Origin: a virus
Length of the DNA: 61,371 nt
Reading direction: 5' to 3' (one strand)
Virus record (IMG/VR): IMGVR_UViG_3300037296_000114
Span: 1 to 61,371 of that record
Each line of letters opens with the position of its first letter. The stretch's first letter is position 1. The notes below the pieces were generated by a model. It was not told where the DNA came from. It saw only the letters and a program-made list of their open reading frames with translations, and did no database searches. Below, one piece after another: positions 1-58,435 of the stretch. A program made the position numbers and the translations under genes.

Positions 1-943
1 TTGTGTTTTGGTCTGGGAAATTCCCACGCCCTTGTGTTGTTACAAACACCCATCCACCATTACGCGGCGTTGTGACTGTCCCAACAGCGTCATCAGCTAT
101 AGTCAGGTCAATTGATTTTATTGAGTTTCCCAACCCATACAAAGACTGCGCTACGGTTTCAGTAATGGCGGTTTTCCATTCGCTGAAATTGACGCCATCC
201 GCAGAGGATCTAAACACCATTTTGCCACTAAGAGAACGCTCAATCGCAATCTGACCGATCAGCGCACCGAAGCGGGTAAAGTTAACACCCGCACCAAGCG
301 AGAAAGGTGTATTTACATGCGTTGCGGCAAACTGGAAAAATCCGGTGGATTCGAAGTCATCCATATCATTGTTTGGCGGGCTTGGCGGGCTACCAGATCC
401 AAGACCTCCATACCCGACTTTCATCAGGCGATCAGCCGTCATGTCCAAATCACTTTGAGTAACCGCAGTGCCCGTAATAGGCACATCGACCTGAAACGCG
501 ATGTTGCTCAACAGCCAACGGCGCACGCCACCCGTGGATGCCGCCATTTGGTTGGACGCGGGGCGGTAAAGCCCTGTGTCGGGGTCAGACACAAACGACA
601 TTGACGGAAGCGAAGCTGTACCATTGAGGAACTTGCCTGCTCCCGCTCCATCAACAACGGATTGAAAGTTGCTGATTAGGTTCTGGATTGACGTGACCAG
701 ATCAAACTCCAGGCTGTTAGTGGGGAAGATCGCATACGACTGACCGGCTGCGGTTGACCCCTGATATGTCGTCTTTAGCGTCAGGGATGATGCGCTGATT
801 ACTGTCTCAATCTCATAGACACGGCCATCGGGACCGACCATGCCCCATCCCGTCTGGAGCGCACCAAACCACGACGAACCAGCGCCCGATACCGCAGTGC
901 TGCCGTTTGTGAATGATGCCGTTCCTACTGAATACCAAGCCAT
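1..943 (-). CDS. Tail adhesin with knob domain, 3' end cut by the window edge
   Basis: The 314 visible codons start at ATG 943, with an AGGA ribosome site about 7 nt upstream, and run off the edge without a stop. The protein is a paralogue of the complete gene at 57274-58434: both start M-A/S-W-Y, share the stretch SFVSDPDTGLYRPASNQMAA, and carry a pyocin-knob-like segment (NNDMDDFE, then GxxFQF). The knob fold is known from phage and pyocin fibres, so a host-binding role is inferred. Position 1 falls on the first base of codon 315, and position 57492 in the paralogue is also the first base of codon 315, so joining position 1 to 57491 gives an intact 386-residue gene. The gene follows the S74-type gene with a one-base gap. 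Confidence 0.8.
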   Translation of the reverse strand, partial: MAWYSVGTASFTNGSTAVSGAGSSWFGALQTGWGMVGPDGRVYEIETVISASSLTLKTTYQGSTAAGQSYAIFPTNSLEFDLVTSIQNLISNFQSVVDGAGAGKFLNGTASLPSMSFVSDPDTGLYRPASNQMAASTGGVRRWLLSNIAFQVDVPITGTAVTQSDLDMTADRLMKVGYGGLGSGSPPSPPNNDMDDFESTGFFQFAATHVNTPFSLGAGVNFTRFGALIGQIAIERSLSGKMVFRSSADGVNFSEWKTAITETVAQSLYGLGNSIKSIDLTIADDAVGTVTTPRNGGWVFVTTQGRGNFPDQNT

Positions 944-944
944 T

Positions 945-1937
945 TTATGTCCTACCTGTGATGCCGCGTGACGTCGGCTTTTGGAGTTTTACGGGGGGCA
1001 TGTTGCTTGTCAGCTTGTCGACCTTGGCTGACAACTCTTGAACAGCGCCCATTGTGACGCCGATAGCGTCAACGACGGGGATAGACTTACCGTCGCCCTT
1101 ACCTGTGGCTTTCTGGAAGTCTTCTGCGTAGGCGCCGATATGTTCGCCGCCGTCGCCCGCGCCGTCTTTGTACTTCCACTGCTCAACCGGCATGCTTTTC
1201 AGCGCCTCAAGGACGCCGCGTGCAGGCTTCTTGTTCTCCTTCACGTCCTTTGATGAAGGCATCATCATGGATAGGCCAAGGCCCGCGATACTGCCAAGCC
1301 CGCCGAATAGGCTGCTGCTGGCGGCTTGGTTGGCGTTGTATGATGCCATTTCCTGCTGATACTGCGTGTTGAGCATGTTGCCCATTTGCTGCTGGCCCTG
1401 CATGGCGCCACTGAAACCGCTGCTTCCTGACGAGTTTGCGAGGCCAAGCGAAGTTGCGGGATTAACCGCGAACCCAGACCCAAGATTTACCGCGTTCGCG
1501 CGCAAGGATCTGCCTTCGCTTTCAACCTGCTTACGCGCAGAGTTTGCCGCGCCCGCCAGTGCGAGGCTTTGCCCCACGCCTGCTGCTGCTTGCCCCGCCT
1601 GCGCACGACCGCTGCTTGGATCAATGCCCATGCGTGCGTTATTGCGGGCTGTGGTGGCGTTCGTTGTGCTTATTGCCTGCGATACGTCAGCCTGCGCTGC
1701 GCGCACCGCTTCCGCTCTAGCCGCAGGCGTATCGTAGTTTTGCGCCTCTTCTATGAAATTATCTTGAAGCGGCTCGAACACGCCTTTGTAGCGCGCGCGG
1801 TCTTTTTCCGCCCAATTATTTGAGATTTTCGCTTGATCCTGCATCCATGCCAGATAATCGCCGCCAAGTTCAGCACTTTTCAGCGCCGCCTCGCCAATGC
1901 GGGGGTCTGCTTCAGGTGCGCTGCTGCCCTTGCCCAT
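945..1937 (-). CDS. Virion protein with C-terminal peptidase S74 (intramolecular chaperone) domain
   Basis: The C-terminal ~100 residues match the S74 family, the self-cleaving trimerisation chaperone of endosialidase and other phage fibres. The pattern is S-S-K-D-V-K-E-N, then W-K-Y-K, G-A-Y-A-E-D-F, G-K-G-D-G and V-D-A-I-G-V. The Ser-Lys dyad would be about S228 and K233, spaced as in the family. The N-terminal part is rich in Ala, Asn, Gln and Ser, with a Gly-rich hydrophobic stretch just before the chaperone. I chose the ATG at 1937 because an AAGGA site lies 8 nt upstream; ATG 1943 is possible. It overlaps the GNAT gene and lies between tail fibre and adhesin, which suggests a structural tail or head-fibre protein whose tip matures by self-cleavage. 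Confidence 0.75.
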   Translation of the reverse strand: MGKGSSAPEADPRIGEAALKSAELGGDYLAWMQDQAKISNNWAEKDRARYKGVFEPLQDNFIEEAQNYDTPAARAEAVRAAQADVSQAISTTNATTARNNARMGIDPSSGRAQAGQAAAGVGQSLALAGAANSARKQVESEGRSLRANAVNLGSGFAVNPATSLGLANSSGSSGFSGAMQGQQQMGNMLNTQYQQEMASYNANQAASSSLFGGLGSIAGLGLSMMMPSSKDVKENKKPARGVLEALKSMPVEQWKYKDGAGDGGEHIGAYAEDFQKATGKGDGKSIPVVDAIGVTMGAVQELSAKVDKLTSNMPPVKLQKPTSRGITGRT

Positions 1938-2433
1938 CGCCATGTTCCTTACGTCGCTGGTGTTGCAACGCAGCATCATGCGCGTCCGTTTCTTCTGTTT
2001 CGTTATCGTGGTCGATGAATTTGCAATCGCTCCGCATGAGGCCAAACATGTTCATGTCGACCTGACCGTCAGCGCCGCGCTTGACGCCCTCGAACCGAAA
2101 CCCGAGTTTGAGTACCATGATCTGTGTCGGGATATTATCTACGGCTATCTGCGTCTGAACCCGAGCAAGACCCAACTCTACAAACGGATAATGGAAGAAC
2201 CCGCGCAGCGTTGACCTTGTGGCCCACCTGCGCGTCTTGGCGCTGGCAATGTGCATAAAGCACGCATTGTCGTAGAAGGCGTTGTAGATCACAACCGCAT
2301 GGATTGTCCCATCATCATCAACGGATGCCAGCGGGACACTTTCGGACGGCCATATCCTTTTCAGGCCAAGGCGCGATGCGGCCCAACCCAGAAGTAGGTA
2401 CGGTTCTTGTGACGTGATGCGCGCGGTCATCAT
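1912..2433 (-). CDS. GNAT-family N-acetyltransferase
   Basis: The 173-residue protein has the look of a RimJ/RimL-like GNAT fold: an N-terminal beta segment, a central region (residues ~75-115) with R-R-W-A-T-R-S-T-L-R-G, and the typical late strand L-G-F-R-F-E-G-V. GNAT enzymes move an acetyl group from acetyl-CoA to an amine; the substrate here is unknown. The ATGATG at 2433/2430 follows a weak GGGG ribosome site, and a further in-frame ATG at 2457 has no better one. It lies between two tail genes, so it may modify virion proteins or host surface components (inference). The last ~30 residues are polar and low-complexity, overlap the next gene, and may not be part of the fold. Confidence 0.65.
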   Translation of the reverse strand: MMTARITSQEPYLLLGWAASRLGLKRIWPSESVPLASVDDDGTIHAVVIYNAFYDNACFMHIASAKTRRWATRSTLRGFFHYPFVELGLARVQTQIAVDNIPTQIMVLKLGFRFEGVKRGADGQVDMNMFGLMRSDCKFIDHDNETEETDAHDAALQHQRRKEHGDGQGQQRT

Positions 2434-2498
2434 TACCCCATATGTTGTGTGCAGCATGCCATATATAACGCCAATGCGCTAGATGCTGTGTGCTGCGG

Positions 2499-5400
2499 TT
2501 AGGTGATCTTGTATATTCTTAGCCGCAAGCTGCCCGAGAATTGCTTTGTGACCCCGCGCGACCAGTATTCGATGCGCACGCGCAGGGATTGGTCACCGGT
2601 CCATCTGGTCAAAGGCAATATTTCCGCCTTCCATCCCCAATAGGTATCTGGGCTGGTGTTCGACTGCACGCCGCCGTTGACATGCTCTACAATCGCCTCA
2701 TAAACATCGTCTGCTCCGCCCCATGCGGTGATGGAGATAGGCGTTGACATGACGTAGATTGTGTAGCCGTGCGCAATATACTCATCGTCACGCACAGTCG
2801 TGGTCCTAGTTGTAAATCCTGTATTCGCGTCACCTACGAGTATGCTGCTCAAGCCTGTAGCGGATGGGACAAATTCAGGGAATGTTATAAGCTGTTCAGA
2901 GATTTGAAGCCTGCGACGTATGATTACGTCTTCAAACTCGGCCGTTCCGTCAGCCAAAATCCTCCATCCCTTTTGCCCTACAGTGAACCCGTCAGAGCGC
3001 AACTCGCCGCCGAACAGCGCAAGTCCGCTTGCTGTGAACGCCTCCGTGCTGACCATTACGGCGGCAAGATCCACAACATCAATCTTCTCGGCTGTAACGG
3101 ATCGCGTCACAAGGCCGTCTCCGGTCAGTAAGCTGGTGTTGCCCGTGCCGTAAGGGGATAGCCGCGCCTCGGCCACGGTCTCTGCGAAAAACGGCTGGAA
3201 AATATGCAGCTTTGCTTGCGCTGCCGTTGCGTCGTCAATGTATACGACGGGCCGCGCGAAGGCTGCATTTTCTGGCGATTCCACAAGGCCGCCATACTTC
3301 TCCCATTTTTGCGGATTAGCCGAATTGCCTTGCGGCACAGAGATATTACCCGCGATGATGCTCTCGGCTATCAGTGCGCCTGCCGCGTTGTAAAACTCTA
3401 CGCCTAGTCTGGCATTGCAGTTATCCGCAGACAGCTTGACCGAAAATTCAAACCACTTGCTATCTTCAATCGGGTATCCAGCCGTAGCTGTACCATCTGT
3501 ATCAAATAGGGTGAATTTGGCCCCGATGTATGCGTTTGAACGCACTACATTAGTGGTAGATGCTATGGTTAATGTCCGGTAATTGAACCCAGCCATATAA
3601 TCGCCTGGCTCATTGAGTTCCAAGCGGCCCGCGATGTTACCGGGTCTGTAGGTGACATTGAGTATGCCTTGGCTAAAGTCGCTGTTTTGCAGCATTTGCG
3701 CTGCATTACCGACCGCCAAGAGGTTTGCGTTGAGCGTGCCCTTAGCAAAAATGTAATCAGCGTCGAGCGTAATTGCAGATCCCGCCCCGCTGGCATTATC
3801 ATAGGCCACAACCTCAAGAGCGCCTGATGCCTCGCCAGCTACAGCGCGCAGCACAAATGCGGATGCAGCGTTTCCCTTTATATCCGCCATGACGCTGCCG
3901 AAGTTCTCAATCCCCGCAATCGTGCCGTTTGCCGCTACGCTCAACTCTGAAAGCATGGTTCCAAACGCGGTTCCGTTCAGGGCGCTCAAGTCCAGCCCCT
4001 TAACGTCTTGGATTTGGCCGTCCAGTTCGGATATTTCAGGCAGTTCGTCGGACTCTGCTGCGATCTGGACAAGGACGCGGGCGACTTCCGTGCTTTTATT
4101 GCCGCCGTTCAGGCCGCCAAAAATGCCGATATAGGAAGCGTCTGACGCAGCCCCAACCGGCACGTCGTAGAAGAAATTGAACCACCGCCATTGAGTGTCG
4201 AATGTACCTTGCGCGGACAATAGGCCAGAATTTCCGGTTGATCCGGCAGAGAACGCGATACCAAAGTTTGCAGCGGCCCCCGTTGAGGGCTTCCTTGCCA
4301 GCACAGACACCTTAACCCTGCGCGCAGCAAACTTCATGACCCATGGCGATTGCAGTTCAAGCACGGCACCGGCGCCAGTCGTTCCTGTGAATGAGGAAGG
4401 GGCTGATACCTCTCGCACACGGATCACTCCCGCTTGCCCAAGCGTGCTTTCGGCCACAAGAGTTGCGCGAGGCCCAGCGTGCAAGTCTTCAAGGCTATCC
4501 AGCGTGAACGAATACCCGGGCACGTCTCCCCTCAAAGCGGTGATCGAGGCGTTCAGAACCTCGCTTGAGGCCGTAATCGCGTTATTTGTCGCAACCTTCG
4601 TGAGGTAATCTGTATCAAGCGTCGCGGTGATTGAGGCGATTGCCTCGCTCTTGGCGTCTTCGATAGGCCCCTCTGGTCCGGTGAGGGCAGCGGCCAGCGA
4701 GGTGTTCGCAGACGATATGGCAGAGTTCGTTTGAACAGTCGTGAGGTAGTCAGCGTCCAGCGTTGCCGTAATTTCGCTTACCGCTCCATCCTTTGTCCCC
4801 TGAATAGGTCCGTCTGGTCCAGTCAGTGCAGCCGATAGGGCTGTACTGGCGGCTACTATCGCGCTTTCAGTGTCGGTTTTCGTGAAGTAGTCATTTGTCA
4901 GTGTTGCGGACAGATCGCCTATCGGTCCTTCTTCAATTTCAGCTTTCAAAGCCGTTCTGGCTGCTGCGATTGCTTCGTTGGTGCTGGTCTTGGTGAGATA
5001 GTTCAGTTGCAAGTTCGCTTGGACGCCACCTATGGAAGCGCCTAGATTTGTAATCTCTTCGGCCACCGCCTCTGCCTCTGTGGCGTAAACTCGTTGCTGC
5101 TGCTCAAGAGACGCAATGTTTCCACCTAGTGCAACACCCATAGACGTCACCGCCTCGGCCAGCGCGCTTCCATCTTCCTCCACTTTTGCCCGTAGATCGT
5201 TGGTGATGTATGCAAATTGCTGGCTGATACTGCTGCGCGCCTCATAGGCGTCCAGAACGTCACGCAGGTTCACTGACTGCAAGTCGCCCATAGACGCCCT
5301 AAGAGACGTTCCTGATGCCGCGATAGCCTCTTCTGTTGTGGCTTTCGTCAGGTAGTTATTTGATAGGTCGGCCCCAATTTCATTGGCGACCTCGGCGGCT

Positions 5401-6872
5401 AAAAGCAGCCCAGCAGAAGCGATTGCTTCGCCTGTTTGGGCACTTGTTAGGTAGTTTTGTGTAAGGCTTGCAGACACGCCGTTAATCTCTGCCTGTAGGC
5501 CGGTTATCTGCTCTGCTGATGCCGCCGCTTCACTGGCTGTAACAACTTGCTGCTGCTCAAGTAACGCAATGCTGCTACCGGTCTTTACGCCAAGCGAAGT
5601 GATCGCCTCGGCTAGAGCCGATCCGTCGTCCTCTACCTTTGCGCGCAAGTCATTCGTAACGTAAGCTATCTGTTCGGCTAGGCTCTCTCTGCCCTCATAT
5701 GCATCCATTAGGGCTTTCAGGTTCGTGGCACCTGAAATTGACGCAGCATCGTATAGATTGCGCACGTCCTGAACGGACTGGCTTATGCTTGCGCCGTCGA
5801 TGGTCTCTAGCGTGATTTCCGCCTGCGTCGTCCGCGTCTCAAGCGCGTCAAACTCGGTCTTGGTTGCCAGTAAATCAATGGCCCCTTGCAACCCGTCGAT
5901 GGTTGTTGACGCCTCGGATAGATCAATTACGAGACCGTCGACAATGGTTTGATCCGCCTTCGAGGTTATAGTGCTGGAAAGTGCATCTAGGTCAACTTCT
6001 ACATTGCTGATTTGCAGCGATAGATCATCGAGTAGCGGTATCTGGCTCGGGTCTAGGATCGCGTTGGAAATAGCTGCATTTACATAGGCAGTCGTGGCAC
6101 GAAGATTGATATTAGCCTCAACCGCATTGACCCTGATTTCAGTCTCGCTGATCCTCTCTTCTGTCGCGTCAATGGCGGAAATGCGTACAGTTCCATCCTC
6201 GGGGCTGACATAGATACCGGCATCGCGGAATGTACTGTCAACCTCGCTGATTTTGGTCAGAAGCCAAGCCACGCGCTGCGATATAGTGCTGATCGACTGC
6301 CCTATATCAACGCGCTCAATGTCCCGCAGTGCAAGTTGATCATTAAAATCATCCAGCCTTTGCACCTGATCTGCAAAGTCTTCGTTCAGCCCTGTTAAAG
6401 CGTTCGTGTAGGACGTGGTGAGGTCGTCAAGCCCAATGGATAGATCATTCACGTCTCCAAAAAGCACAGTTAGTTCGCTGTCTACTCCATCCAGTATCGC
6501 ATCAACGCTCGAAAACTCGTCAGCAAGTTTTCCTACGAATCCATCTGTGAGGGCTTCTAGGTCACTTCGCACATTTGCGGCCGCCAGCGCCGCTGCTGCC
6601 GCCTCCTGCCCCAGTGCATCTGCGTTCGCGATTGCCTGGGCGATCCGATAACGCAGCGTGCCCGGTTCTGCGTCAGTGCCTATTTCATCGGTGAGACGGA
6701 TATTTTCGTCCGTCGCCTTTCGTGCCAGCTTGAGGGAGATACCCAAGCCCGCATTTACGCCTTGCAGATCATCGAAACGGACAGCGTGCTTGCCTTTCGG
6801 TCCCCGAAAGCCCGCAAGTGTTTCAAGCCCTTCCTTTAGGCGGTTTGTCAGCCCTGATAGCCCGTTTTTCAT
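2499..6872 (-). CDS. Long coiled-coil tail fibre / tail tip protein
   Basis: The protein is 1457 residues. Its start at ATG 6872 overlaps the upstream stop as ATGA. The first ~250 residues are probably the virion attachment part. Residues ~200-850 are long heptad-like helices with internal repeats: two copies of an A-Y-E-x-R..TNDLRAKV-x-DGSALAEA unit and at least six N/D-Y-L/F-T-K-x-x-T units separated by ~35-65 residues. A beta-rich part follows, then a C-terminal ~130-residue tip with Trp/Tyr-rich strands. The arrangement fits a trimeric receptor-binding fibre. The N-terminal third is clearly homologous to the gene at 58885-61371 (for example I-L-D-P-S-Q-I-P-L-L-D-D versus V-L-D-P-S-Q-L-P-V-L-D-D), but the tips do not look related. 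Confidence 0.75.
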   Translation of the reverse strand: MKNGLSGLTNRLKEGLETLAGFRGPKGKHAVRFDDLQGVNAGLGISLKLARKATDENIRLTDEIGTDAEPGTLRYRIAQAIANADALGQEAAAAALAAANVRSDLEALTDGFVGKLADEFSSVDAILDGVDSELTVLFGDVNDLSIGLDDLTTSYTNALTGLNEDFADQVQRLDDFNDQLALRDIERVDIGQSISTISQRVAWLLTKISEVDSTFRDAGIYVSPEDGTVRISAIDATEERISETEIRVNAVEANINLRATTAYVNAAISNAILDPSQIPLLDDLSLQISNVEVDLDALSSTITSKADQTIVDGLVIDLSEASTTIDGLQGAIDLLATKTEFDALETRTTQAEITLETIDGASISQSVQDVRNLYDAASISGATNLKALMDAYEGRESLAEQIAYVTNDLRAKVEDDGSALAEAITSLGVKTGSSIALLEQQQVVTASEAAASAEQITGLQAEINGVSASLTQNYLTSAQTGEAIASAGLLLAAEVANEIGADLSNNYLTKATTEEAIAASGTSLRASMGDLQSVNLRDVLDAYEARSSISQQFAYITNDLRAKVEEDGSALAEAVTSMGVALGGNIASLEQQQRVYATEAEAVAEEITNLGASIGGVQANLQLNYLTKTSTNEAIAAARTALKAEIEEGPIGDLSATLTNDYFTKTDTESAIVAASTALSAALTGPDGPIQGTKDGAVSEITATLDADYLTTVQTNSAISSANTSLAAALTGPEGPIEDAKSEAIASITATLDTDYLTKVATNNAITASSEVLNASITALRGDVPGYSFTLDSLEDLHAGPRATLVAESTLGQAGVIRVREVSAPSSFTGTTGAGAVLELQSPWVMKFAARRVKVSVLARKPSTGAAANFGIAFSAGSTGNSGLLSAQGTFDTQWRWFNFFYDVPVGAASDASYIGIFGGLNGGNKSTEVARVLVQIAAESDELPEISELDGQIQDVKGLDLSALNGTAFGTMLSELSVAANGTIAGIENFGSVMADIKGNAASAFVLRAVAGEASGALEVVAYDNASGAGSAITLDADYIFAKGTLNANLLAVGNAAQMLQNSDFSQGILNVTYRPGNIAGRLELNEPGDYMAGFNYRTLTIASTTNVVRSNAYIGAKFTLFDTDGTATAGYPIEDSKWFEFSVKLSADNCNARLGVEFYNAAGALIAESIIAGNISVPQGNSANPQKWEKYGGLVESPENAAFARPVVYIDDATAAQAKLHIFQPFFAETVAEARLSPYGTGNTSLLTGDGLVTRSVTAEKIDVVDLAAVMVSTEAFTASGLALFGGELRSDGFTVGQKGWRILADGTAEFEDVIIRRRLQISEQLITFPEFVPSATGLSSILVGDANTGFTTRTTTVRDDEYIAHGYTIYVMSTPISITAWGGADDVYEAIVEHVNGGVQSNTSPDTYWGWKAEILPLTRWTGDQSLRVRIEYWSRGVTKQFSGSLRLRIYKIT

Positions 6873-8446
6873 GGCCGTCTGCTCAATTCTGCAAGCGAGG
6901 TTGCGAAGGTGATCGAGGAAATGGACGCGGAACCGGACACATGCACCTCCCAATGCTGCGCGCTCACGTCGGGCAGCCGCACTACCTGATTGAGTGATGT
7001 GACCGTGTGGACGCTCACACCGTCAGCAATAAACACGGCTTGGAAGTTGTCGGCGCCGGTCAGGTTGTCACCCTCGATCAATGCCCCTGAAAACGAGACA
7101 GGATAAGGCAGATCATACAGTTTGGTTTTCCACTCCTGCGCGCGATAGGTTTCAGACGCCGTGTCGTCAAAGACATGCAGTCGATTGTCGGCCTCCTGCA
7201 TGTAGAGGCGGCCAGTGCGAATGTCGTGGTAGCCGCACTTCATGACGGCATCGGTGCGCATGAAGAAAGGCTGGGCCCCAGTCAGGTCGATGATCCCCGT
7301 CTTTTCCTCTGCACCGGCCAGTGTGCCAGCAAATGCGAAGACGTAGCGCCCGCCCACTTGGCTTGCGACCATCGTTTCAGGCTGCATGCGTGCCCAAGCA
7401 CGTCGGTTGAACAGTTGCCTCGTGACTAGGCTGGTGCTGGTGCCCGATACCAGCACAAGACCTTCCGTCGATGGATATGCCGCAGCGTATCCAAGATCCA
7501 CGATTCCGCGCGCGGAGACGCAAGGCAGGTTCTCTTCAACGCGCTCAAGCTGGAACGTGTCAGGCTCGGACCCTTGGCCGCGATAGGGCTGACCCTTTGT
7601 CATGACCGCCAGTTGCGAGCCAAACGCGGCGAGGCCCACAATATCGTAGTCGACGGTCAGGGAGTAGGACACTGGCCATGCGTGCGGCTGGTATGGCTCA
7701 CAGAACCATATGTCGCGCGCTGTGTGTCCCACCATCATGCCGTTGGGCATGCTGATGATGCCGCGCAAGTCGTCAGGCGGGGGCGTGAAGTTCGTGGTGC
7801 TGATCGGTTCCGCGATAGGGTATGTCTCCTGATCGTGGTCGAATGTCGCCGCAGGTGTGATTTCAGCAACGAAGTACAGATCGGTCACGGATAAGTCAGA
7901 CGTCACGGAGCGATATATGCGGATTGCGGAAATGCCTCGGTTAAGAGGTGGCGTCTCCATCCCAGCCACGCGCACGGTAACACCCTCCGACGTGGATAGA
8001 GCCTCGGACACTGGCGACGGGGCGCTCTCCTCCCCAAACTCTGTGACAAAGGTGTAGGCGAACACTACCGTTTCCAGATTGTCTACGTCTGGTGTCGATG
8101 TTGTTGCGGTAGTGGGCGCTGTCGCCGGTGCGTTCAACGCAAGCGGATAGTACAGATCGTTGGTATACATCTTCGGCACGCCGTCACCGGTGATGTAGAG
8201 GCGGTCTGACGCGACGGGACCGGGCACGACATGAACATGATCGGCCCATGCCAGCCAAGTCGACCCGTTCAGATAAACGGTCTTTCGTGGCGTCGTCAGG
8301 TCTGTGGTGAATGTCGATCCCGATAGAGGCGTTATAGCCCCATCATCAAGCCGTGTGTTGACCGCCAGTTGCGCGGCGTTTGGCGGCAACATACGCGGGT
8401 GTTTCACTGGAAACTCGCCCATGAAGTCTGTGATGCTGATGATCAT
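6869..8446 (-). CDS. Tail hub / nozzle-like structural protein
   Basis: The 525-residue protein starts F-M-G-E-F-P-V-K-H-P-R-M-L-P and continues with A-V-N-T-R-L-D-D-G-A-I-T-P-L-S-G. This opening style is common in podovirus tail tube or nozzle proteins. A fibronectin-III-like segment lies near residues 125-150 (T-F-V-T-E-F-G-E-E-S-A-P-S-P). The remainder is beta-rich with repeated short blades, as in tail nozzle propellers. It lies between the adaptor proteins and the long fibre, and its stop overlaps the fibre start. The exact family cannot be settled by eye; tail tube B or P22 gp10-like needle-hub proteins are the nearest ideas. Confidence 0.6.
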   Translation of the reverse strand: MIISITDFMGEFPVKHPRMLPPNAAQLAVNTRLDDGAITPLSGSTFTTDLTTPRKTVYLNGSTWLAWADHVHVVPGPVASDRLYITGDGVPKMYTNDLYYPLALNAPATAPTTATTSTPDVDNLETVVFAYTFVTEFGEESAPSPVSEALSTSEGVTVRVAGMETPPLNRGISAIRIYRSVTSDLSVTDLYFVAEITPAATFDHDQETYPIAEPISTTNFTPPPDDLRGIISMPNGMMVGHTARDIWFCEPYQPHAWPVSYSLTVDYDIVGLAAFGSQLAVMTKGQPYRGQGSEPDTFQLERVEENLPCVSARGIVDLGYAAAYPSTEGLVLVSGTSTSLVTRQLFNRRAWARMQPETMVASQVGGRYVFAFAGTLAGAEEKTGIIDLTGAQPFFMRTDAVMKCGYHDIRTGRLYMQEADNRLHVFDDTASETYRAQEWKTKLYDLPYPVSFSGALIEGDNLTGADNFQAVFIADGVSVHTVTSLNQVVRLPDVSAQHWEVHVSGSASISSITFATSLAELSRRP

Positions 8447-8455
8447 TGCGGCCCC

Positions 8456-9133
8456 TCATATAAATTCTGGTCTGCTGCGACGGGGCGCGCGCTGCTGGCC
8501 GCGAAGTTCCGATGAAAAGTGCCGGTCGCAGGCTTCGTTGAAACGGCCGGCATAGTATCCGGCCATCTTGGGGTCGTGCCACTTGGTGTCCTTGATCGCC
8601 AAGAGCCGCGCCAGCGCGCCTTCTGCAATCTTCTCCGCAGACTGGATGAAGACGTGTTCAGGGATCACGTTGTATTTGTCCTGCAATGGGTCCGCAGGAT
8701 CGTTGCCGTACTCTGTGCCCGCCCGTGGTTTCAGGAATAGGGATAGAGACAGGCTGCCGACCATGAAGGGCAGCACAGTCACGGAGTTTGGCGATACCTG
8801 CGTAATATATCGAGGCGCGTTGCCCTCCATTGCCTCGGCGTCTGACAGCGATATTTGCGTGAATTGTGTTGCCACAAGTTCAGTGCTAGATACGGTTTCG
8901 CTTGAAAACTCTGCGCTCTCAATCTCGAATATGGTGGCGTAGTCGGGGGAGACGATTGCCTCCCCCTGCTCTGTCAGGTCCATTGTTGAGACGTGACGCC
9001 AGCAACGTGTGCGCTCGCACCACTCGATTGCAGCCAGACGCAGGTACTGCTCGGCCACGGGGCGCGGGCAGTATTGCGCATGCGGCAACACAAGCGGCAG
9101 GAAGTCACGCAGGGGGCGGGTTGGCACCTCCAT
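8456..9133 (-). CDS. Head-tail adaptor-type protein
   Basis: The 225-residue protein has an N-terminal helical pair (residues ~10-45, A-E-Q-Y-L-R-L-A-A-I-E-W-C-E-R-T) followed by a beta region and a long C-terminal helix. This is the pattern of adaptor or connector proteins that sit below the portal in short-tailed phages. The start ATG shares one base with the preceding stop (TAATG). Its place just downstream of a second adaptor-like gene and upstream of the tail hub supports a portal-tail joining role, which is inference from position and shape. The C-terminus is basic (Q-R-A-P-R-R-S-R). Confidence 0.6.
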   Translation of the reverse strand: MEVPTRPLRDFLPLVLPHAQYCPRPVAEQYLRLAAIEWCERTRCWRHVSTMDLTEQGEAIVSPDYATIFEIESAEFSSETVSSTELVATQFTQISLSDAEAMEGNAPRYITQVSPNSVTVLPFMVGSLSLSLFLKPRAGTEYGNDPADPLQDKYNVIPEHVFIQSAEKIAEGALARLLAIKDTKWHDPKMAGYYAGRFNEACDRHFSSELRGQQRAPRRSRPEFI

Positions 9134-9846
9134 TAGCCACGGTTCCGCGTATCATCGCCCGTTGAGTTTGTTGTCATGACCTGTTCGGTCTGCACCTTGA
9201 GGCCGATTGCATTGGCAAACATCTGGTAGTGCGCTTGCGCGCGGCTGGCGTTATTCGGGTCCGCCGCGTCCTTGGAGTAGGCGCGGTACATGACGTAATC
9301 CACCAGCGCGCCCCGCAGGACGTCAGGCAGCGTCAGTTCAGCCGTGTAGCTGTCAACGCTCAATGGGTTGGTAGGCTCTGCAATCTCGGTCGGCAGGATC
9401 GACACAACGGCCTCTACAATGCCAGTACCGTCATTGCCGGGCACGACGTAGAAGCTGCGGGGGTCTGCCATATCCTGAATGACATGCTCCACGGTCGCGG
9501 AGAAAGGCAGCACCGTGGCGTCCTGCCAACCGGCCATGATGCTGTCCAGCGTAGTGCGGCTGACTGCTGTGATGGCTGTCCCGCCCTTGCGCCCGCCCTC
9601 GTCCTCGTCAACGGAGGTGAGGTTGCGAGACATGCGAATGAGCGAGATATGATTGCCCTCTAGGCGTTGAAGTGTGCCTTCCTGTAGGGACAGCTCAATC
9701 GTGTCGGTGACAGCGTTTGGCTTGTGCAGGGCAATCGCCTGCATTGCGTCGTTGAGGTAGATCAGCAACTCGGGCACCGGCCAGCGAACAAAGCCGCTAT
9801 CCTGCAAGGTGATCGAGGCGCGGCGTAGGATTTCTTTGGCCTGCAT
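9133..9846 (-). CDS. Phage adaptor protein (DUF6682-like)
   Basis: The 237-residue protein opens A-K-E-I-L-R-R-A-S-I-T-L-Q-D, then V-R-W-P-V-P-E-L-L-I-Y-L-N-D-A. This matches the conserved start of the DUF6682 adaptor family found next to portal and tail genes of many podoviruses. Later blocks L-T-L-P-D-V-L-R-G-A-L-V-D-Y-V-M-Y-R-A-Y-S-K-D and a C-terminal helix (A-H-Y-Q-M-F-A-N-A-I-G) also fit. It would form the ring between portal and tail. It is the first gene after the capsid group and is translationally coupled to the next adaptor gene by a one-base overlap. Confidence 0.75.
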   Translation of the reverse strand: MQAKEILRRASITLQDSGFVRWPVPELLIYLNDAMQAIALHKPNAVTDTIELSLQEGTLQRLEGNHISLIRMSRNLTSVDEDEGGRKGGTAITAVSRTTLDSIMAGWQDATVLPFSATVEHVIQDMADPRSFYVVPGNDGTGIVEAVVSILPTEIAEPTNPLSVDSYTAELTLPDVLRGALVDYVMYRAYSKDAADPNNASRAQAHYQMFANAIGLKVQTEQVMTTNSTGDDTRNRG

Positions 9847-9892
9847 GGTGCAGCACTCCTTTTAAGACGTGGTAGCGGTGATTGGTGGGGGC

Positions 9893-10564
9893 TTATTCAG
9901 CCTCAACCAGCCCCATTTCAGCAGCTTTAGTGCGGATGAATTTCAGCACGGTTTCACGCTTGGCTTGGCCGTTTGGTTCACGGTCATGCGTTGCGACAAA
10001 TGCGGCCTTGATTGCCTCGTCGTCGGCGCTGTCAGGCATGGACAGAACGGCGGACACAAGATCGGCCTGCTCCTTCGATAGCCCGGATGCCTTCACGGCG
10101 GCATTGTAGCGGGCGCGCTCGGCTTTATCAGCGGCGGCCTTCTCGGCGGCGGCTTTGTCTTCTGCGGCCTTGTCTGCGGCTGCGCGTTCGGCCTCGGTCG
10201 CCTTATCCAGCGGATCGTTGACCGGCTCGGTTGGCGACTTGGTGTCAGGCTCGTTTGGCTCTGCGGCCTTGTCTGCGGCCGTCTTGCGGGCCTGCTCGGT
10301 TTCCGGCATGTCGGGATCGGTATCATCCGCCGCGTCTGGGTCTGCTGGTGGCTCGTCGTCGCTGGCAACGCCGCGCTCTTTCGCTACTTCTTCGCGATAA
10401 ATCTTGTAGGCTTCGCTGACGGACAGGAATTTTGCCACATGCTCGTCGTCCTCTACATCTTCGATGTGAGGCCCGTTCGGCACGCGCGGCTGGAAGTGGT
10501 ATTTCACGCCGCCCATAGTGACCTTTGTACCTTTATTCCGCTCAATTTTGCTTTGGATCAGCAT
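9893..10564 (-). CDS. Hypothetical protein with acidic Ala/Lys-rich linker
   Basis: The 223-residue protein is not recognised. Residues 1-55 look folded (I-Q-S-K-I-E-R-N-K-G-T-K-V, then V-K-Y-H-F-Q-P) and include an S-V-S-E-A-Y-K-I-Y-R-E-E helix. Residues ~65-165 are low-complexity and highly charged, rich in Asp, Pro, Ala and Lys (repeats of A-D-K-A-A). The last ~55 residues form a predicted helical domain (S-G-L-S-K-E-Q-A-D-L-V-S-A-V-L). It lies between capsid and adaptor genes and is bounded upstream by a strong terminator hairpin. A head-completion or structural role is possible from position only. Confidence 0.6.
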   Translation of the reverse strand: MLIQSKIERNKGTKVTMGGVKYHFQPRVPNGPHIEDVEDDEHVAKFLSVSEAYKIYREEVAKERGVASDDEPPADPDAADDTDPDMPETEQARKTAADKAAEPNEPDTKSPTEPVNDPLDKATEAERAAADKAAEDKAAAEKAAADKAERARYNAAVKASGLSKEQADLVSAVLSMPDSADDEAIKAAFVATHDREPNGQAKRETVLKFIRTKAAEMGLVEAE

Positions 10565-10592
10565 GTGGGTTTACTCCGGTTGTTGCTGCGTG

Positions 10593-10619
10593 AAAAAGGG
10601 CGGCTCATAGGGGCCGCCC
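10593..10619 (-). terminator. Intrinsic terminator after the capsid genes
   Basis: On the minus strand a GC-rich hairpin (arms at 10611-10619 and 10598-10606, pairing GGGCGGC with GCCGCCC, 4-nt loop) is followed at once by five T residues (10597-10593). It lies directly downstream of the gene at 10626-11069. It should separate or attenuate the capsid transcript from the downstream adaptor and tail genes. Confidence 0.8.
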
Positions 10620-10625
10620 GTTGGT

Positions 10626-11069
10626 TTAGAAGGTGTACTGGAACACCAGCGTAAGTGTCGCGGCGCCTGCGGCCTGATTGGCTGACAGTTGCACACCAAT
10701 GCCGCGATGCTTGTCCGACGGCGCGATTGCGAGACATTCCGCCATTGTGGCGGTGTCGCCTGCGGCGGTGGTCGGTGCGGCTGCGAACAGCGTGTCTGCG
10801 GTCAGGTCGCGGGTGTCGTCATTGTCACCAGCCTCGCCATCCAGCAGGCTTACCTCCGCTGTGGTGGCAGCGGTTACGCCGTCGCCAAAGACAGACGCGG
10901 CGATGATGCGGGCACCGGCTGGCAGCGTGGCAATCTCGATCAGATCAGTGGCTGTCGCGTAGGCTTTTGTGAACGCGAAACTGGCGATGCAGGCACCGAC
11001 AAGGCCGCTTTGATAGACCGAAGGGGGCGTGTCGATGCGACGTGCGATTTTGGACTGTTGAAGGGCCAT
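10626..11069 (-). CDS. Capsid-associated / decoration protein candidate
   Basis: The 147-residue protein is not recognised by motif. It is predicted all-beta with small residues: repeated Ala/Thr-rich strands, A-T-L-P-A-G-A-R-I-I-A-A-S-V-F-G-D-G, and a C-terminal strand T-L-T-L-V-F-Q-Y. It follows the major capsid gene directly and is closed by a terminator, so it is probably made at a high level with the capsid protein. In N4-gp56-type phages a small beta-rich decoration or head-stabilising protein is often encoded here. The function is therefore inferred from position and composition only. Confidence 0.55.
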   Translation of the reverse strand: MALQQSKIARRIDTPPSVYQSGLVGACIASFAFTKAYATATDLIEIATLPAGARIIAASVFGDGVTAATTAEVSLLDGEAGDNDDTRDLTADTLFAAAPTTAAGDTATMAECLAIAPSDKHRGIGVQLSANQAAGAATLTLVFQYTF

Positions 11070-11138
11070 TGGCTTCCTCTCTTCCGTGTGTGTGGTTGTG
11101 CGCAGGGCTGGTTATTCAGCCCCGCGCGTTAGATCGCC

Positions 11139-12242
11139 TTACTGGCTGACAGGCGCGGTTGCGGCGGTGTCGATTGCCATGACGCCGAAGTCAGACTTGC
11201 CAAAGCGGGTCTTGGTGAACCCGACAATCGTACCGGCGCAAACGGTCGGCTCGTTGTCGAAGTCTTCCATTTCCTCTTTCCACGAGAAGCGGGAACCCTT
11301 GGCAACGCCATAGGCGCAGATGCCAGCCTGACGGCCCATGAACAGGGCGCGGCTTGCTTCCACGTCACCGCCGACACCGTAGTCGTCAAAGCGGATGGTG
11401 GAGGGGTGGCTGTGCAGAACGACGTTGTTGATCATGCCAAGGTTGCCCTTGAAGATCTTGTTCTTGTTGCCCTCGGCAGCAGCAGCCGCCTTTTGGACCT
11501 CAAGCCAGCCGCCTGTGCCGGTCGCCGTGCGCATGTCATGCTCCTGATAGGGAGACATGACGGTCACATAGCGGTTCTCGCCTTCGATGGTGACAGGCAC
11601 CATGTTGGCGGTGGATGGATCACGGGCGCGCATCATGGCCGCGACCGTGACGGCGCGCTCAATCAGTTCGCGGCTCATAACGTCCGCAGTGGTCAGGCTG
11701 CCCTTGGACACGGCGGACCCACCAAACAGCAAGTGCTGGTTATCAGGCGCTCGCAGTGGGTTGCCACCGTGGCCGGTGTAGTCTTCGTCTTCGATGAAGT
11801 CTTCGTTCATGCCGCGCGCACCGGACAGGTAGATGAACATGAGTTCATCCATGTACTTCGCCCAATAGTCGCCAAGGCGGTTCTTACCGACTTTGCGCAG
11901 ATCGTGGGCGGTGCGCTTGCGGGTCATTTTACCGCCAGCGGACACGGTTTTGCGAAGCTGGTCGATGATCACTTCGTCCGTATAGAATTTCAGGTTCTCT
12001 TCCTTGCCCTTGACGCGCTTGTCGCCAGACGTGGGCTTGCCGCGCAACTGCACAGACAGGTCGAAGCTGATGCTGTCGCCCTGATCGGATTCGAGGTCCG
12101 TTTTTTCTTCGATGATGTTGTTGTCGCCACGTCCGACAAACTTCTTGGTGAAGTAGGCTTTTTCGAGCGTGTCGATAGCGAGGTTAGCAGACCATTTCTT
12201 TTGGGCCTTAACGTCGCCAAAGGGGATTACCGTTTGGGTCAT
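11139..12242 (-). CDS. Major capsid protein, N4-gp56 family
   Basis: The 367-residue protein matches the N4-gp56 capsid family: V-I-P-F-G-D-V-K-A-Q-K-K-W-S at the N-terminus, F-V-G-R-G-D-N-N-I-I, then G-D-S-I-S-F-D-L, G-K-M-T-R-K-R-T and M-D-E-L-M-F-I-Y-L-S-G-A-R-G. These are typical of HK97-fold shells in N4-like and many marine podoviruses. The start ATG 12242 has a GAGG site 8 nt upstream. In-frame upstream codons exist but overlap a regulatory element. It has its own candidate promoter element at 12281-12318, in keeping with the high output a capsid gene needs. Scaffold and decoration candidates flank it. Confidence 0.9.
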   Translation of the reverse strand: MTQTVIPFGDVKAQKKWSANLAIDTLEKAYFTKKFVGRGDNNIIEEKTDLESDQGDSISFDLSVQLRGKPTSGDKRVKGKEENLKFYTDEVIIDQLRKTVSAGGKMTRKRTAHDLRKVGKNRLGDYWAKYMDELMFIYLSGARGMNEDFIEDEDYTGHGGNPLRAPDNQHLLFGGSAVSKGSLTTADVMSRELIERAVTVAAMMRARDPSTANMVPVTIEGENRYVTVMSPYQEHDMRTATGTGGWLEVQKAAAAAEGNKNKIFKGNLGMINNVVLHSHPSTIRFDDYGVGGDVEASRALFMGRQAGICAYGVAKGSRFSWKEEMEDFDNEPTVCAGTIVGFTKTRFGKSDFGVMAIDTAATAPVSQ

Positions 12243-12280
12243 TTTGATGTCCTCATGTTGGATCGGTTGAGCCAGCATAA

Positions 12281-12318
12281 GCACATCTTGCGCCATACTA
12301 CGGAGACGCCTACCACAT
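12281..12318 (-). promoter_or_regulatory. Late-type regulatory element, copy 1 (capsid)
   Basis: Read on the plus strand, GCACATCTTGCGC (12281-12293) and GACGCCTACCACAT (12305-12318) both recur upstream of the endolysin gene (38578-38590 and 38601-38614) with nearly the same gap (11 versus 10 nt). The first block recurs again upstream of the giant gene. The element ends 38 nt before the capsid start. Conservation in non-coding DNA in front of three late transcription units suggests a late promoter or activator site. This is inferred; no experimental consensus is known to me. Confidence 0.6.
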
Positions 12319-12330
12319 ATGGTATAATCA

Positions 12331-12364
12331 GGGAAGCCCAAACCGTTTCTGGTCCGGGCTTCCC
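12331..12364. terminator. Perfect hairpin between csrA-like gene and capsid promoter element
   Basis: A 9-bp perfect stem pairs GGGAAGCCC (12331-12339) with GGGCTTCCC (12356-12364) around a 16-nt loop. It lies in the gap between the CsrA-like gene and the capsid element. There is no clean T-run on the minus strand, so it may be a weak terminator, a processing site or an mRNA-protecting structure, not a classical terminator. Confidence 0.45.
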
Positions 12365-13441: not shown

Positions 13442-13681
13442 TTAGTCTGAAATTTCGCGGCTATGTGCTGCGAGGTTGTGTATTGCCATCGTTAGGAGGC
13501 CCACTGCTTCCACGGCGTCGGCTGTGTCGAACCCCGTGGTGAATTTTCCATCGGTAAGCGTTCCTCCGAATACGATGGAGCGCAGTTCGCCCGACTTGGC
13601 GCGTTCCAGCAATTTCTCGCAAACGTCGATCACGCGCTGTTCGGGCTTTGCTTTCCCGATCTGGATGGGGGTTGTCTTCAT
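13442..13681 (-). CDS. Small hypothetical protein coupled to portal
   Basis: The 79-residue protein is not recognised. The start ATG overlaps the portal stop as ATGA, so it is probably translated by coupling. Its middle (F-G-G-T-L-T-D-G-K-F-T-T-G-F-D) is predicted beta and its C-terminal half is a helix ending in A-I-H-N-L-A-A-H. Small proteins at this site in related phages are unstudied. An accessory role in head assembly is a guess from position. Confidence 0.55.
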   Translation of the reverse strand: MKTTPIQIGKAKPEQRVIDVCEKLLERAKSGELRSIVFGGTLTDGKFTTGFDTADAVEAVGLLTMAIHNLAAHSREISD

Positions 13682-15984
13682 GGCATCATGCCTCCTTGTG
13701 GGCCTGCGGGTGCAGGCATGGGTTGTTCTTGCGCCATAGGGTCAACTGGCGGCGCTACGGGCTGCTGTTGTGGCATGGCGGGTTGCTGTGGCGCCGGTTC
13801 AGAGGGTTGCCCCGCAAAGCCTGCTTCGAGAAGGAAGCTGTCAGCGACTGCCGCGACGGCTTGGTCGCCAGCGATGGCGATGGCGGCCTCGATCGCTTTC
13901 ATCTGGGTGTCGACGTCCTGCCCAGACGTCTTGGACAGGATCGCGCGTATCTCGGCCTTCACCTTCTCGCTTTGACCGATGGAGAGGGCAGCGCGGGCTT
14001 GACGCTCTGCCGCTGTGGCCTCTTTCTCGGCTACCTCGGCCTCTTGCGCACGCTGCTGCATCTTCTGCTGTGCGGCCTGTGCCTGCTTGCGTGCGATGGT
14101 TTCCTCGTCGGGGTTGTCAGGGTCTGCGTCTGGGTCTTCAGCCCCTGTGAGGCTACGCACGCGCTTCACCAACTCTTCGCGCTGCGGCACGTCCATCGTC
14201 TCAATGAGAAGATCGAGGATCGCCATAACCACCTCTGGGGAGGTGCCCGCCAGCATCTGCATCAACTCAATAAGCTGTTGCGTCTGCGCTTGCCGGATAG
14301 TGCTGTTCCAATCCTCTTCGCTGATGATGAAATCAGCCTTGCTTGAAACAATATCGTTCTCGGGAAGCCCGTCGTTGACCGTGATAAACTCGGGCCGTCC
14401 GCGCTGGTTGGTAATGCGGAATTGCTTTTCCTGCTCCATGAATTGTTCTGTGAGGGACAGCATCTTTTCGCCATGGACCTGACGCGCATAGCGCAGGTTG
14501 TCGAAGATCGTGCTTGTTGCCAGTGAGCCTTGATCCTGACGCGCTACGATAGCCTTGCCGCTGGTGGCGTTGGTCGTGCGCCCCATATTCTCGTCTGTGA
14601 TGCCACTGGCCTGCTGCACCATGCTGATAGAGCGAGACATAATGTCGAGGTGCGCGGGTGCCAACTCGCGGTCCACGCCCATTTCAAGCTGCTTACCCTG
14701 CCGTTTGACGATGATGCCGTCTGGCCGGTTCGCTTCTTCTTGGAACGTCGCCATGTCGGCAACCGCGCCCTCGTCCATGATCGTCTTGTTGGTGGACAAG
14801 ATGTAGAGAGCCTTCGAGAAACGCTTGTTAATGTCGCTCTGCGGGTCTCGCATCTGGCGCACCGGTGCATAGGGCATGTTGTCCCGGTCCATCCGGTAGG
14901 CCCAGATCGGGGTGAATGGGTAGAGGTTGTGGCGGTACGGTGACTTTGACAGGTGCAGGAGGCCGTTCTCGGTCATGATTGCCACGAACATGCGCATCCG
15001 CACACGCCTGGTCACTGACGCGCGGCCCGCTTCGACCTCGCGCATGTGGCCTTGGCTCTGCGGGTCGAACAATTCGCCACGGAATTGCCCGCCGCTCATG
15101 TACTTGTCCTCTACGGGCACGCGAAACCATGCCTCGATCACACGCAGGCGTCGACGGTCTGACTGTTCGTGCGCTAGGCCACTGGACAGGGATAGCTGGT
15201 GTGCGTCCTCCATCGCGTCCATTGCATCATCCCCGCTGCCGGATAGGGCTTGCAAGAAGTCGAGGGTGTTGGATGCCGCAATCTCGATCTGATATTTGCG
15301 CTCTGGGAACATGTGGGCCGCAATGTCGGTGTCCATCCACTTCGAGCGGAACATGAACCGCGCGTCGCTCAAGTCTGGCTCCATCGCAATGCTGTCCCAT
15401 AGCATGTTGCGCCACGTCTCGCGGCGGTCGAAGATGGGTTCGCCCTCGTCGTCGGCCTGCACGCCGCTTTCCAGCCAGCCCACGCCCACCTTGGCGCAGT
15501 CTGCAAACGCGGCAGAGACGTGGAACTCACTGCGGTTGACGTCTGACAGGTACTTGAGCAACTGGCTCTTGCGCTCTGCTGCCTTGCTGGCCTCTTTTTG
15601 GCGGGGGAGGATCTTGTAATCCGTGCGCCCGCGCTTCTCGGTGCCCAGCAGCCATTGATAGGAGGTCGCAATCACGTTGTAGACAAGCGGCTGTTGACCG
15701 CGTGCGCGCAGGAGCGCTGCGTCTTGGCTGTCCCATTGCAGGCCGTCCACAAAGTCGGCGTCGATTGCCTGCTGGCGTCTGTTGACCTCCTGACGCAGCA
15801 ACTCCGACTGGTAGAACCCAAGAAGTTTGCTGTGGAGCGCCTGATAGTCGATGTTGTCGAGTTTGTTCGAGACAACTTTCTCTGTGATGGGCTGCTTTGC
15901 CAGCCGGTCGATGGGGTCGTTCGACTTGCGGCCGCCGTCCGTCACCTGACCCGCAAAGGCTGGATCATCCTGTGTATTATACAA
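13678..15984 (-). CDS. Portal protein, P22-like family
   Basis: The 768-residue protein matches P22-type portals: N-terminal Y-Q-A-L-H-S-K-L-L-G-F-Y-Q-S-E and D-F-V-D-G-L-Q-W, V-Y-N-V-I-A-T-S-Y-Q-W-L-L-G-T-E-K-R-G-R, W-R-N-M-L-W-D-S, then a helical barrel region and a Gln/Pro/Met-rich tail. It forms the dodecameric vertex ring for DNA packaging and tail attachment. The first usable start is TTG 15984, overlapping the previous stop by 8 nt, with only a weak GGGGG upstream; no in-frame ATG occurs for ~190 codons. The C-terminal ~110 residues (helical, Ala/Gln-rich) resemble the long barrel of P22 portal. Confidence 0.9.
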   Translation of the reverse strand: MYNTQDDPAFAGQVTDGGRKSNDPIDRLAKQPITEKVVSNKLDNIDYQALHSKLLGFYQSELLRQEVNRRQQAIDADFVDGLQWDSQDAALLRARGQQPLVYNVIATSYQWLLGTEKRGRTDYKILPRQKEASKAAERKSQLLKYLSDVNRSEFHVSAAFADCAKVGVGWLESGVQADDEGEPIFDRRETWRNMLWDSIAMEPDLSDARFMFRSKWMDTDIAAHMFPERKYQIEIAASNTLDFLQALSGSGDDAMDAMEDAHQLSLSSGLAHEQSDRRRLRVIEAWFRVPVEDKYMSGGQFRGELFDPQSQGHMREVEAGRASVTRRVRMRMFVAIMTENGLLHLSKSPYRHNLYPFTPIWAYRMDRDNMPYAPVRQMRDPQSDINKRFSKALYILSTNKTIMDEGAVADMATFQEEANRPDGIIVKRQGKQLEMGVDRELAPAHLDIMSRSISMVQQASGITDENMGRTTNATSGKAIVARQDQGSLATSTIFDNLRYARQVHGEKMLSLTEQFMEQEKQFRITNQRGRPEFITVNDGLPENDIVSSKADFIISEEDWNSTIRQAQTQQLIELMQMLAGTSPEVVMAILDLLIETMDVPQREELVKRVRSLTGAEDPDADPDNPDEETIARKQAQAAQQKMQQRAQEAEVAEKEATAAERQARAALSIGQSEKVKAEIRAILSKTSGQDVDTQMKAIEAAIAIAGDQAVAAVADSFLLEAGFAGQPSEPAPQQPAMPQQQPVAPPVDPMAQEQPMPAPAGPQGGMMP

Positions 15985-16414
15985 AGTCCCATACCCCCGC
16001 TTCGCGGGTCTTGCCCGTGTTGGTATCGGTCTGCTCCACGTCGGCCACGCGAACCATGTCGGCGTCTGTGAGGGGGCGCATGGTCAGCAGGTCGCCAAGG
16101 TGGTCGCGGATGATCGAGGTGAGGCGCAGCAGCGTGCGCGGGTCGTTCTGGGATAGCCCCAGCGCCGCAGCGAATTGCCACGTCATTTGCGCGCAGTGGA
16201 TGGCGTCGCCTGTGTACTCGTCCCACATGTAGGCCAGATCGAGGGGGACAAGGCATGGTGTTACCTTGTCCGCGTCGAGGGTGCGGCGGCTGTTTGGCAT
16301 CAGGACCATAACAGGCCGCCCGTTGTGCATAGACCATGTGCCTATGACCACGACGTCGCCCTGCTCTCGCTTCCAGTCGTATCGGGTTAGATCAATGATA
16401 GGTGTATCGCTCAC
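15977..16414 (-). CDS. Hypothetical protein between terminase and portal
   Basis: The 145-residue protein starts at GTG 16414, which overlaps the terminase stop as GTGA and follows a perfect AAGGAGG site. A longer upstream extension is not supported. It has an N-terminal beta-rich half (D-V-V-V-I-G-T-W, R-P-V-M-V-L-M-P-N-S) and a helical C-terminal half (A-A-A-L-G-L-S-Q-N-D-P-R-T-L-L-R-L). I do not recognise a family. The strong ribosome site and the position between packaging and portal genes suggest a packaging- or head-related role. Confidence 0.6.
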   Translation of the reverse strand: MSDTPIIDLTRYDWKREQGDVVVIGTWSMHNGRPVMVLMPNSRRTLDADKVTPCLVPLDLAYMWDEYTGDAIHCAQMTWQFAAALGLSQNDPRTLLRLTSIIRDHLGDLLTMRPLTDADMVRVADVEQTDTNTGKTREAGVWDFV

Positions 16415-20214: not shown

Positions 20215-20282
20215 AATTTGAATTTCAAAAATGGGGGCTTTGCGCCCACCACCACCTCTCTTGTTAACCTTATTACTTTACT

Positions 20283-20467
20283 GCGTCCCGTTTTGCGTCC
20301 CGTTTTGCGTCCATACATGCTCTTTATTGTTTGTTATCAACAACATATATGCGTCCCGTTTTGCGTCCCGTTTTGCGTCCGTCCTTTTTTATGCGTCCCG
20401 TTATGCGTCCATGCAGTCGGTTTATCGTTTGTTATCAGATACATATATGCGTCCCGTTTTGCGTCCC
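20283..20467. repeat. Iteron-like GCGTCC repeat array in the control region
   Basis: Ten copies of GCGTCC start at 20283, 20295, 20307, 20351, 20363, 20375, 20393, 20405, 20449 and 20461. Most are in the form GCGTCCCGTTTT with a 12-bp period; groups are separated by 44-bp steps. A 47-bp larger unit (20323-20369 and 20421-20467) is repeated with a 98-bp period and 43 matching bases, each containing GTTTGTTATCA and ACATATAT. The array lies between divergent late and early blocks. It could be a replication origin or a cooperative regulator site. Confidence 0.8.
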
Positions 20468-34981: not shown

Positions 34982-35014
34982 ACCGCAGCACAATCTACTT
35001 GGGGGGTAAATTGG

Positions 35015-35039
35015 GGGGTGGCGAAAGCCGCCCCTTTTT
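35015..35039 (+). terminator. Terminator after the xis-like gene
   Basis: GGGGTGGC (35015-35022) pairs with GCCGCCCC (35027-35034) around a GAAA loop and is followed by five T residues. It ends the plus-strand operon before the integrase. Its left arm overlaps the first arm-type repeat. Confidence 0.8.
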
Positions 35040-35142
35040 CTTTGCTATAAAAATAGGGGCTTTTCGCTAAATTCAACGTGCCCACCACATGCACATTGTA
35101 GCTGTAGCAACATGTAGCATGAGCGAAATATCCCCATAATAT

Positions 35143-35172
35143 GTTGCACCATGTAACACTCGCGGCTACAAA
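35143..35172 (+). promoter_or_regulatory. Integrase promoter with overlapping operator
   Basis: GTTGCACCATGTAAC (35143-35157) is a consensus operator. TTGCAC (35144-35149) and TACAAA (35167-35172) with 17 bp between them form a likely -35/-10 pair, the same layout as the early promoter. Weaker half-sites occur at 35088-35118. The integrase starts at 35244. Confidence 0.6.
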
Positions 35173-35243
35173 GCCCATGCAACGCGTATCATCGCAGCGC
35201 CCTCTACTTGGGGGGTAAATTGGGGGGGTGCTTCTTGGCAGGA

Positions 35244-38532: not shown

Positions 38533-38576
38533 TGGGAATACTCCTGCGCAATGTGACAATATGGCTTTCGGCCTGT

Positions 38577-55958: not shown

Positions 55959-55959
55959 G

Positions 55960-58434: not shown

Positions 58435-58435
58435 C

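Follow-up and report, generated by a model that had tools for sequence, protein, structure and literature searches.

The podoviruses Bcep22, BcepIL02 and JC1 of Burkholderia, together with PEp14, LASTA, PBC5, POI1126 and Atu_ph08, are Bcep22-like phages with genomes of 57-64 kb, in which a capsid protein, portal, terminase, internal virion protein, S74 protein and DarB-like giant protein recur. The cultured alphaproteobacterial phages PBC5, Atu_ph08 and POI1126 have genomes of 57,416, 58,966 and 59,782 bp, respectively. Passages of one account describe Bcep22, BcepIL02 and JC1 as circularly permuted (PMC9144972) and a passage of another has POI1126 existing as a plasmid prophage (PMC5492332), and a genome of this kind is therefore expected to form a circle in an assembly. 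As regards assembly itself, metaSPAdes leaves end overlaps of maxK length at breakpoints according to a passage of the COBRA paper (PMC10914622), and a metagenome announcement listed for JGI and IMG gives k values up to 127 (PMC7171226).

The window analysed here comprises the whole of a virus record, 61,371 bases long, and this record most likely consists of the complete circular genome of a short-tailed phage, 57,491 bases in length, the assembly having gone once round and then about 3.75 kb into the tail genes of another phage. With a probability of roughly 0.85 we take positions 1-57491 (the loop) to be the whole podovirus circle and 57619-61371 (the branch) to come from a different, long-tailed phage, the two having met at a shared adhesin tip. 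Taken at face value, the record would give a podovirus two adhesins together with a tail gene of a siphovirus, and it would conceal the completeness of the genome.

The podovirus loop

Judged from its predicted proteins the loop is a Bcep22/PEp14-type podovirus, with a major capsid protein of the group type, a P22-like portal and a terminase large subunit, and its genome adds a new member to a group already known. Its features relevant here are:

1-127: repeat copy 1, putative junction k-mer at the record start; adhesin codons 273-315; diverges at 128
2-943, minus strand: adhesin/tail fibre, codons 1-314 (phrog_2712 and phrog_1980, tail fiber); cut by the record edge and completed at 57491-57274
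945-2045, minus strand: virion structural protein with an S74 endosialidase-chaperone domain, a podovirus core gene (phrog_8003, 5.7e-96; PF13884, 2.8e-07)
1912-2457, minus strand: Acyl-CoA N-acyltransferase of the late block (phrog_4470)
2499-6953, minus strand: 1484-aa tail fibre with a J-type stalk domain (phrog_37064; 29% over 586 aligned positions to the branch protein)
6869-8446, minus strand: internal virion protein (phrog_511, 1.3e-153)
11139-12341, minus strand: major capsid protein of Bcep22/PEp14 type (phrog_334; about 60-71% to PEp14, Itty13, BcepIL02, JC1 and PBC5)
13678-15984, minus strand: P22-like portal protein (PF16510, 5.4e-172, 573.8 bits)
16411-18096, minus strand: terminase large subunit (phrog_2; 40% to PBC5)
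37705-38583, minus strand: amidase endolysin (68% to the endolysin of the long-tailed phage L044)
39550-53976, minus strand: 4808-aa DarB-like giant virion protein (42% to PBC5 and 40% to the Atu_ph08 DarB-like protein, over the C-terminal 900-970 aa)
54120-56003, minus strand: 627-aa virion structural protein, which follows S74 in relatives (phrog_9667; 58/58 loci)
55960-56856, minus strand: glucosaminidase (PF01832)
56802-57263, minus strand: 153-aa protein; homolog after the adhesin in the long-tailed L044/L045 (65%) and in L068 (42%)
57274-57491, minus strand: adhesin C-terminal tip and stop, the common end of both alleles as assembled
57492-57618: repeat copy 2, putative junction k-mer within the right-hand adhesin gene

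The capsid, portal, terminase, internal virion, S74 and DarB-like giant proteins are thus as in the phages named above, but the loop differs from Bcep22-like podoviruses in having the adhesin and the 153-aa gene between S74 and the glucosaminidase, and in that its fibre bears a J-type stalk. The giant DarB-like gene, 39-42% alike in the loop and three cultured phages, lies near the amidase lysis gene in the loop; PBC5 and Atu_ph08 have it on the opposite strand. A RecT-like protein and a tyrosine integrase are encoded as well. A search of the phage collection with 1-12000 returned no near DNA relatives beyond a stretch of 74.5% to Itty13.

Two repeated elements were furthermore observed in the loop. 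At 20282-20467 a block of about 79 nt occurs in two copies 98 nt apart (86%) with units like ATGCGTCCCGTTTTGCGTCC, possibly an origin or regulatory site, and at 34984-35227 two 35-nt copies (91%), 209 nt apart and containing CTACTTGGGGGGTAAATTGGGGGG, lie about the point where the integrase gene begins (35208) and could be integrase arm or att-related sites. The plus-strand open reading frame 56209-57141 was dropped as a gene in favour of the minus-strand frames 56802-57263 and 55960-56856.

The exact repeat and the proposed join of 57491 to 1

Bases 1-127 and 57492-57618 are identical by exact string comparison and part at the very next base, which is T at 128 and G at 57619. These 127 bases are the full length of the repeat and the longest exact repeat in the window, the next ones being of 58, 52, 44 and 31 bases; the 127-mer occurs twice on the plus strand and not at all on the minus strand of the window, in which the final 127 bases occur just once. 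The repeat is not due to chance, since the two places are homologous genes and since it begins at the very first base of the record. An ungapped alignment of 1-943 with 57492-58434 has 717 of 943 positions identical, or 72% identity outside the 127-bp repeat, and includes a second near-identical stretch (98%) of the two adhesin genes at 481-600. By codon arithmetic, position 1 is where the left adhesin (ATG 943) has the first base of its codon 315, and in the right adhesin (ATG 58434) that base is 57492; when 57491 is joined to 1 the adhesin frame is open over 386 residues with one terminal stop and the circle measures 57,491 bp. The original prediction had claimed an identity that ends at the next base, a common codon start at 1/57492 and a join that restores an intact 386-residue adhesin, and in all of this it agrees with the letters of the window. 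Exact searches of the viral contigs with 59 bases of the repeat and with 63 bases from the right end of the window found no second contig.

Independently of the repeat, the 57,491-bp circle is the natural reading because of gene order and genome size in the relatives. Gene order was surveyed by tblastn in 158 fetched loci (all except L001 and L002), 70 of which have the S74 gene, and 58 of these 70 also have the 627-aa gene. In every one of the 58 (about 54 distinct records, at least four contigs being counted twice, namely L027/L090, L029/L115, L030/L116 and L031/L114) the S74 gene stands directly before the 627-aa structural gene on the same strand, the latter lying 243-2683 bp downstream from hit to hit. 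The corresponding distance in the window, from 945-2045 to 54120-56003, is 2,433 bp by way of the join as against 55,058 bp as the record is written, and the order capsid, internal virion protein, acyltransferase, S74, 627-aa gene and DarB is found only with 57491 joined to 1. Once the circle is closed the late-gene order matches that of Bcep22-like podoviruses, and in the cultured PBC5, Atu_ph08 and POI1126 the order from capsid to S74 is that of the loop; a homolog of the 627-aa gene was not found in POI1126. In L099, L106 and L128 a glucosaminidase homolog starts within about 30 bp of the end of S74. That the join makes the late genes from terminase to endolysin a single block had been foreseen, and the resulting neighbours are those predicted by the 58 loci and the cultured phages, from which we infer that the loop closes on itself.

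For comparison with the length of the repeat, end overlaps were measured in nine relatives from metagenomes, each 60 kb or longer, taken from lists of relatives that include the best 80 of at least 575. Between their first and last 600 bases the longest exact match was 127, 127, 126, 123, 122 and 44 bases in six and 10 bases, the chance level, in three, where an end overlap is absent. Overlaps of 122-127 bp are thus present in five of the nine near-complete relatives and measure exactly 127 bp in two. The relative with the 126-base match, G006 (L171/L172; 63,896 bases), has its last 126 bases at positions 144-269, an end-against-interior layout like that of the window on a smaller scale, and is probably a circle of about 63.6 kb and a second case of overshoot. 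These overlaps, and the maxK overlaps described in the passage of the COBRA paper (PMC10914622), support the claim that the edge of the window is a graph junction of assembler k length, and the k used for this record was presumably 127. The likeness to the overlaps in that passage is an exact overlap of 127 bases at a contig end; the difference is that one copy in the window is interior, the path seemingly having circled and then left along a second branch. As a genomic feature, the 127-bp repeat is most likely an assembly artefact.

The record would in that case be a lollipop-shaped path through the assembly graph. The loop would be a circularly permuted or plasmid-like molecule that assembles as a circle, with 57491 followed by 1, and the stick, 57619-61371, a second path that departs from the 127-base junction k-mer, contributed by a siphovirus-type phage of the same sample that has a J gene, a PagP-like gene and an adhesin in a row. 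One edge of the graph, that of the podovirus, would leave and re-enter the 127-mer, a second edge, that of the siphovirus, would only leave it, and the assembler would have traversed the first in full and then departed by the second. The identical tip bases of both adhesins would presumably stem from recent recombination between phages that infect the same host. Conserved gene order across a join, combined with an interior exact overlap of assembler length, makes a simple test, which could bring to light further complete genomes overlooked by screening for equal ends, because such screening fails when the path overshoots.

The branch and the long-tailed phages

The features of the branch side are:

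57619-61371: the branch, reached from the junction solely by the second path; its probable source is a long-tailed phage
57492-58434, minus strand: branch adhesin allele, N-terminal 314 codons (58% to the L044 adhesin, residues 1-210)
58436-58888, minus strand: 150-aa PagP-like outer-membrane-type protein (weak match to phrog_3600, 1.3e-06, residues 5-74)
58885-61371, minus strand: J-type tail-tip protein, C-terminal 828 residues, with 39-residue (117-nt) tandem repeats; extends beyond the end of the record

Single-sequence searches with the 828-aa protein and with the PagP-like protein gave no matches. Alignment of the stalk region (A2) led to L043-L046, four viral contigs of nearly one lineage, to which the J-type stalk of the branch is 67% alike over 281 aa, and to the J protein of L046 the branch protein is 47% alike over residues 3-828, that is nearly to the end of the record. 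The L046 J protein has 1399 aa, and the genes ahead of it encode, according to PHROGs, HK97-type capsid/protease, major tail, tape-measure and distal tail proteins; Pfam returned nothing at E 0.001 for four tail proteins of this contig. In a stalk tree of 41 sequences the branch groups with L043/L046 at 100/100, the loop fibre being placed elsewhere, and in a tree of the N-terminal half of the adhesin with 45 sequences the branch allele again falls with L043/L046 (100/99), the loop allele being their sister; from both trees identical rows were left out, and so were J rows of fewer than 150 and adhesin rows of fewer than 110 residues.

The long-tailed L043-L046, L003 and L037-L041 (Roseobacteraceae/Paracoccaceae genome loci) have J followed by an adhesin, as in the branch, but the C-terminal tip of their adhesin differs from that of the window, which had no match in the fetched loci at E 0.1. 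In L046, furthermore, the adhesin homolog follows 34 bp after J with no gene in between, whereas the branch has its PagP-like gene there. The latter overlaps the J stop by 4 bases. No relative of it was found in the viral contigs or phage records, and it could point to the podovirus side, since the Bcep22-like BcepIL02 and DC1 carry a PagP-like gene according to a passage of PMC9144972. Nor is a J-stalk sequence alone proof of a siphovirus, since J-type stalks are also found in the podoviruses L054, L057, L058 and L067 and in the loop fibre. The N-terminal portion of the branch J protein, by which a long-tailed phage could be proved, falls beyond the end of the record. GC content does not separate the branch (59.4%) from the loop (58.0%). 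The 93 loci with podovirus hallmarks and the 33 with siphovirus tail hallmarks, the latter labelled by hand from tblastn output, do however not overlap at all. The notion that 57619-61371 is a second path and not a downstream part of the circle is in agreement with the distinctness of the branch and the grouping of its J protein with long-tailed phages. What the present analysis adds is that the branch is probably not a strain variant and, by the sequence of its tail-tip protein, probably belongs with the long-tailed phages, which suggests a separate origin.

Within the branch J protein five tandem copies of the 117-nt (39-residue) unit span 59600-60367; the stalk of the L003 J protein likewise has tandem units, and variation in stalk length seems to be common in these J-type tail-tip proteins.

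Alternative readings and a presumably shared adhesin tip

Tail genes are the most variable genes between closely related phages, and the branch might accordingly belong to a variant strain of the podovirus itself, one equipped with a different fibre-adhesin module, reflecting receptor-binding variation within a species. The loop too has a J-stalk fibre before its adhesin, and the PagP-like genes known from Bcep22-like phages (a passage of PMC9144972) are in agreement with such a variant. We nonetheless consider it improbable, since the branch has neither an S74 gene nor an acyltransferase between fibre and adhesin, whereas S74 precedes the 627-aa gene in all 58 loci, and since the stalk tree places the J protein of the branch among long-tailed phages (100/100), this protein being only 32-36% alike to podovirus fibres.

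Another reading is that a single genome larger than 61.4 kb holds both adhesin modules in direct repeat, the record edge then marking a repeat that the assembler failed to resolve, and such a podovirus might even swap its adhesin by recombination. The deposited contig does hold both modules, a left repeat longer than k would give an identical 127-bp picture, and multiple tail-fibre genes are usual, JC1 and BcepIL02 having 3-4 according to a passage of PMC9144972. A genome of this kind is very unlikely, with or without swapping, since long-tailed tail-tip hallmark genes occur in none of the 93 podovirus-hallmark loci and the insertion would split the S74 and 627-aa genes, which are at most 2.7 kb apart in the 58 loci. 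It is hardly credible that the 127 bp belong to a linear genome as its true terminal repeat or serve to switch between adhesins: direct repeats at contig ends can be genuine and adhesin alleles in direct repeat could recombine, but the second copy lies 3.75 kb inside the record and within a coding frame, two relatives that come from other metagenomes have end overlaps of that very length, and, as against a terminal repeat, Bcep22-like phages are reported as circularly permuted in a passage of PMC9144972.

On the preferred reading of a podovirus circle followed by part of a long-tailed phage, the shared junction k-mer means that two phages have adhesin tips in which 127 bases or more are identical, and this points to a receptor-binding tip common to unlike phages. 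An exchange of the tip between phages, whatever its direction and age, would account for it. It is likely that a cassette for host binding and lysis is actively moving between the two virion types, podovirus and siphovirus, of one community, in which the adhesin tips are identical over at least 127 bases at 72% identity in the remainder compared, and whose kin share the 153-aa gene and the endolysin. Hints of such a travelling cassette of adhesin, 153-aa gene and endolysin come from L044, where the adhesin is followed by a 104-aa gene and then by homologs of the window's 153-aa gene (65%), endolysin (68%) and 115-aa protein (33%).

The podovirus amidase at 37705-38583 has its 68% counterpart at 8987-9826 of L044, a contig with which the loop also shares the adhesin and the 153-aa gene.
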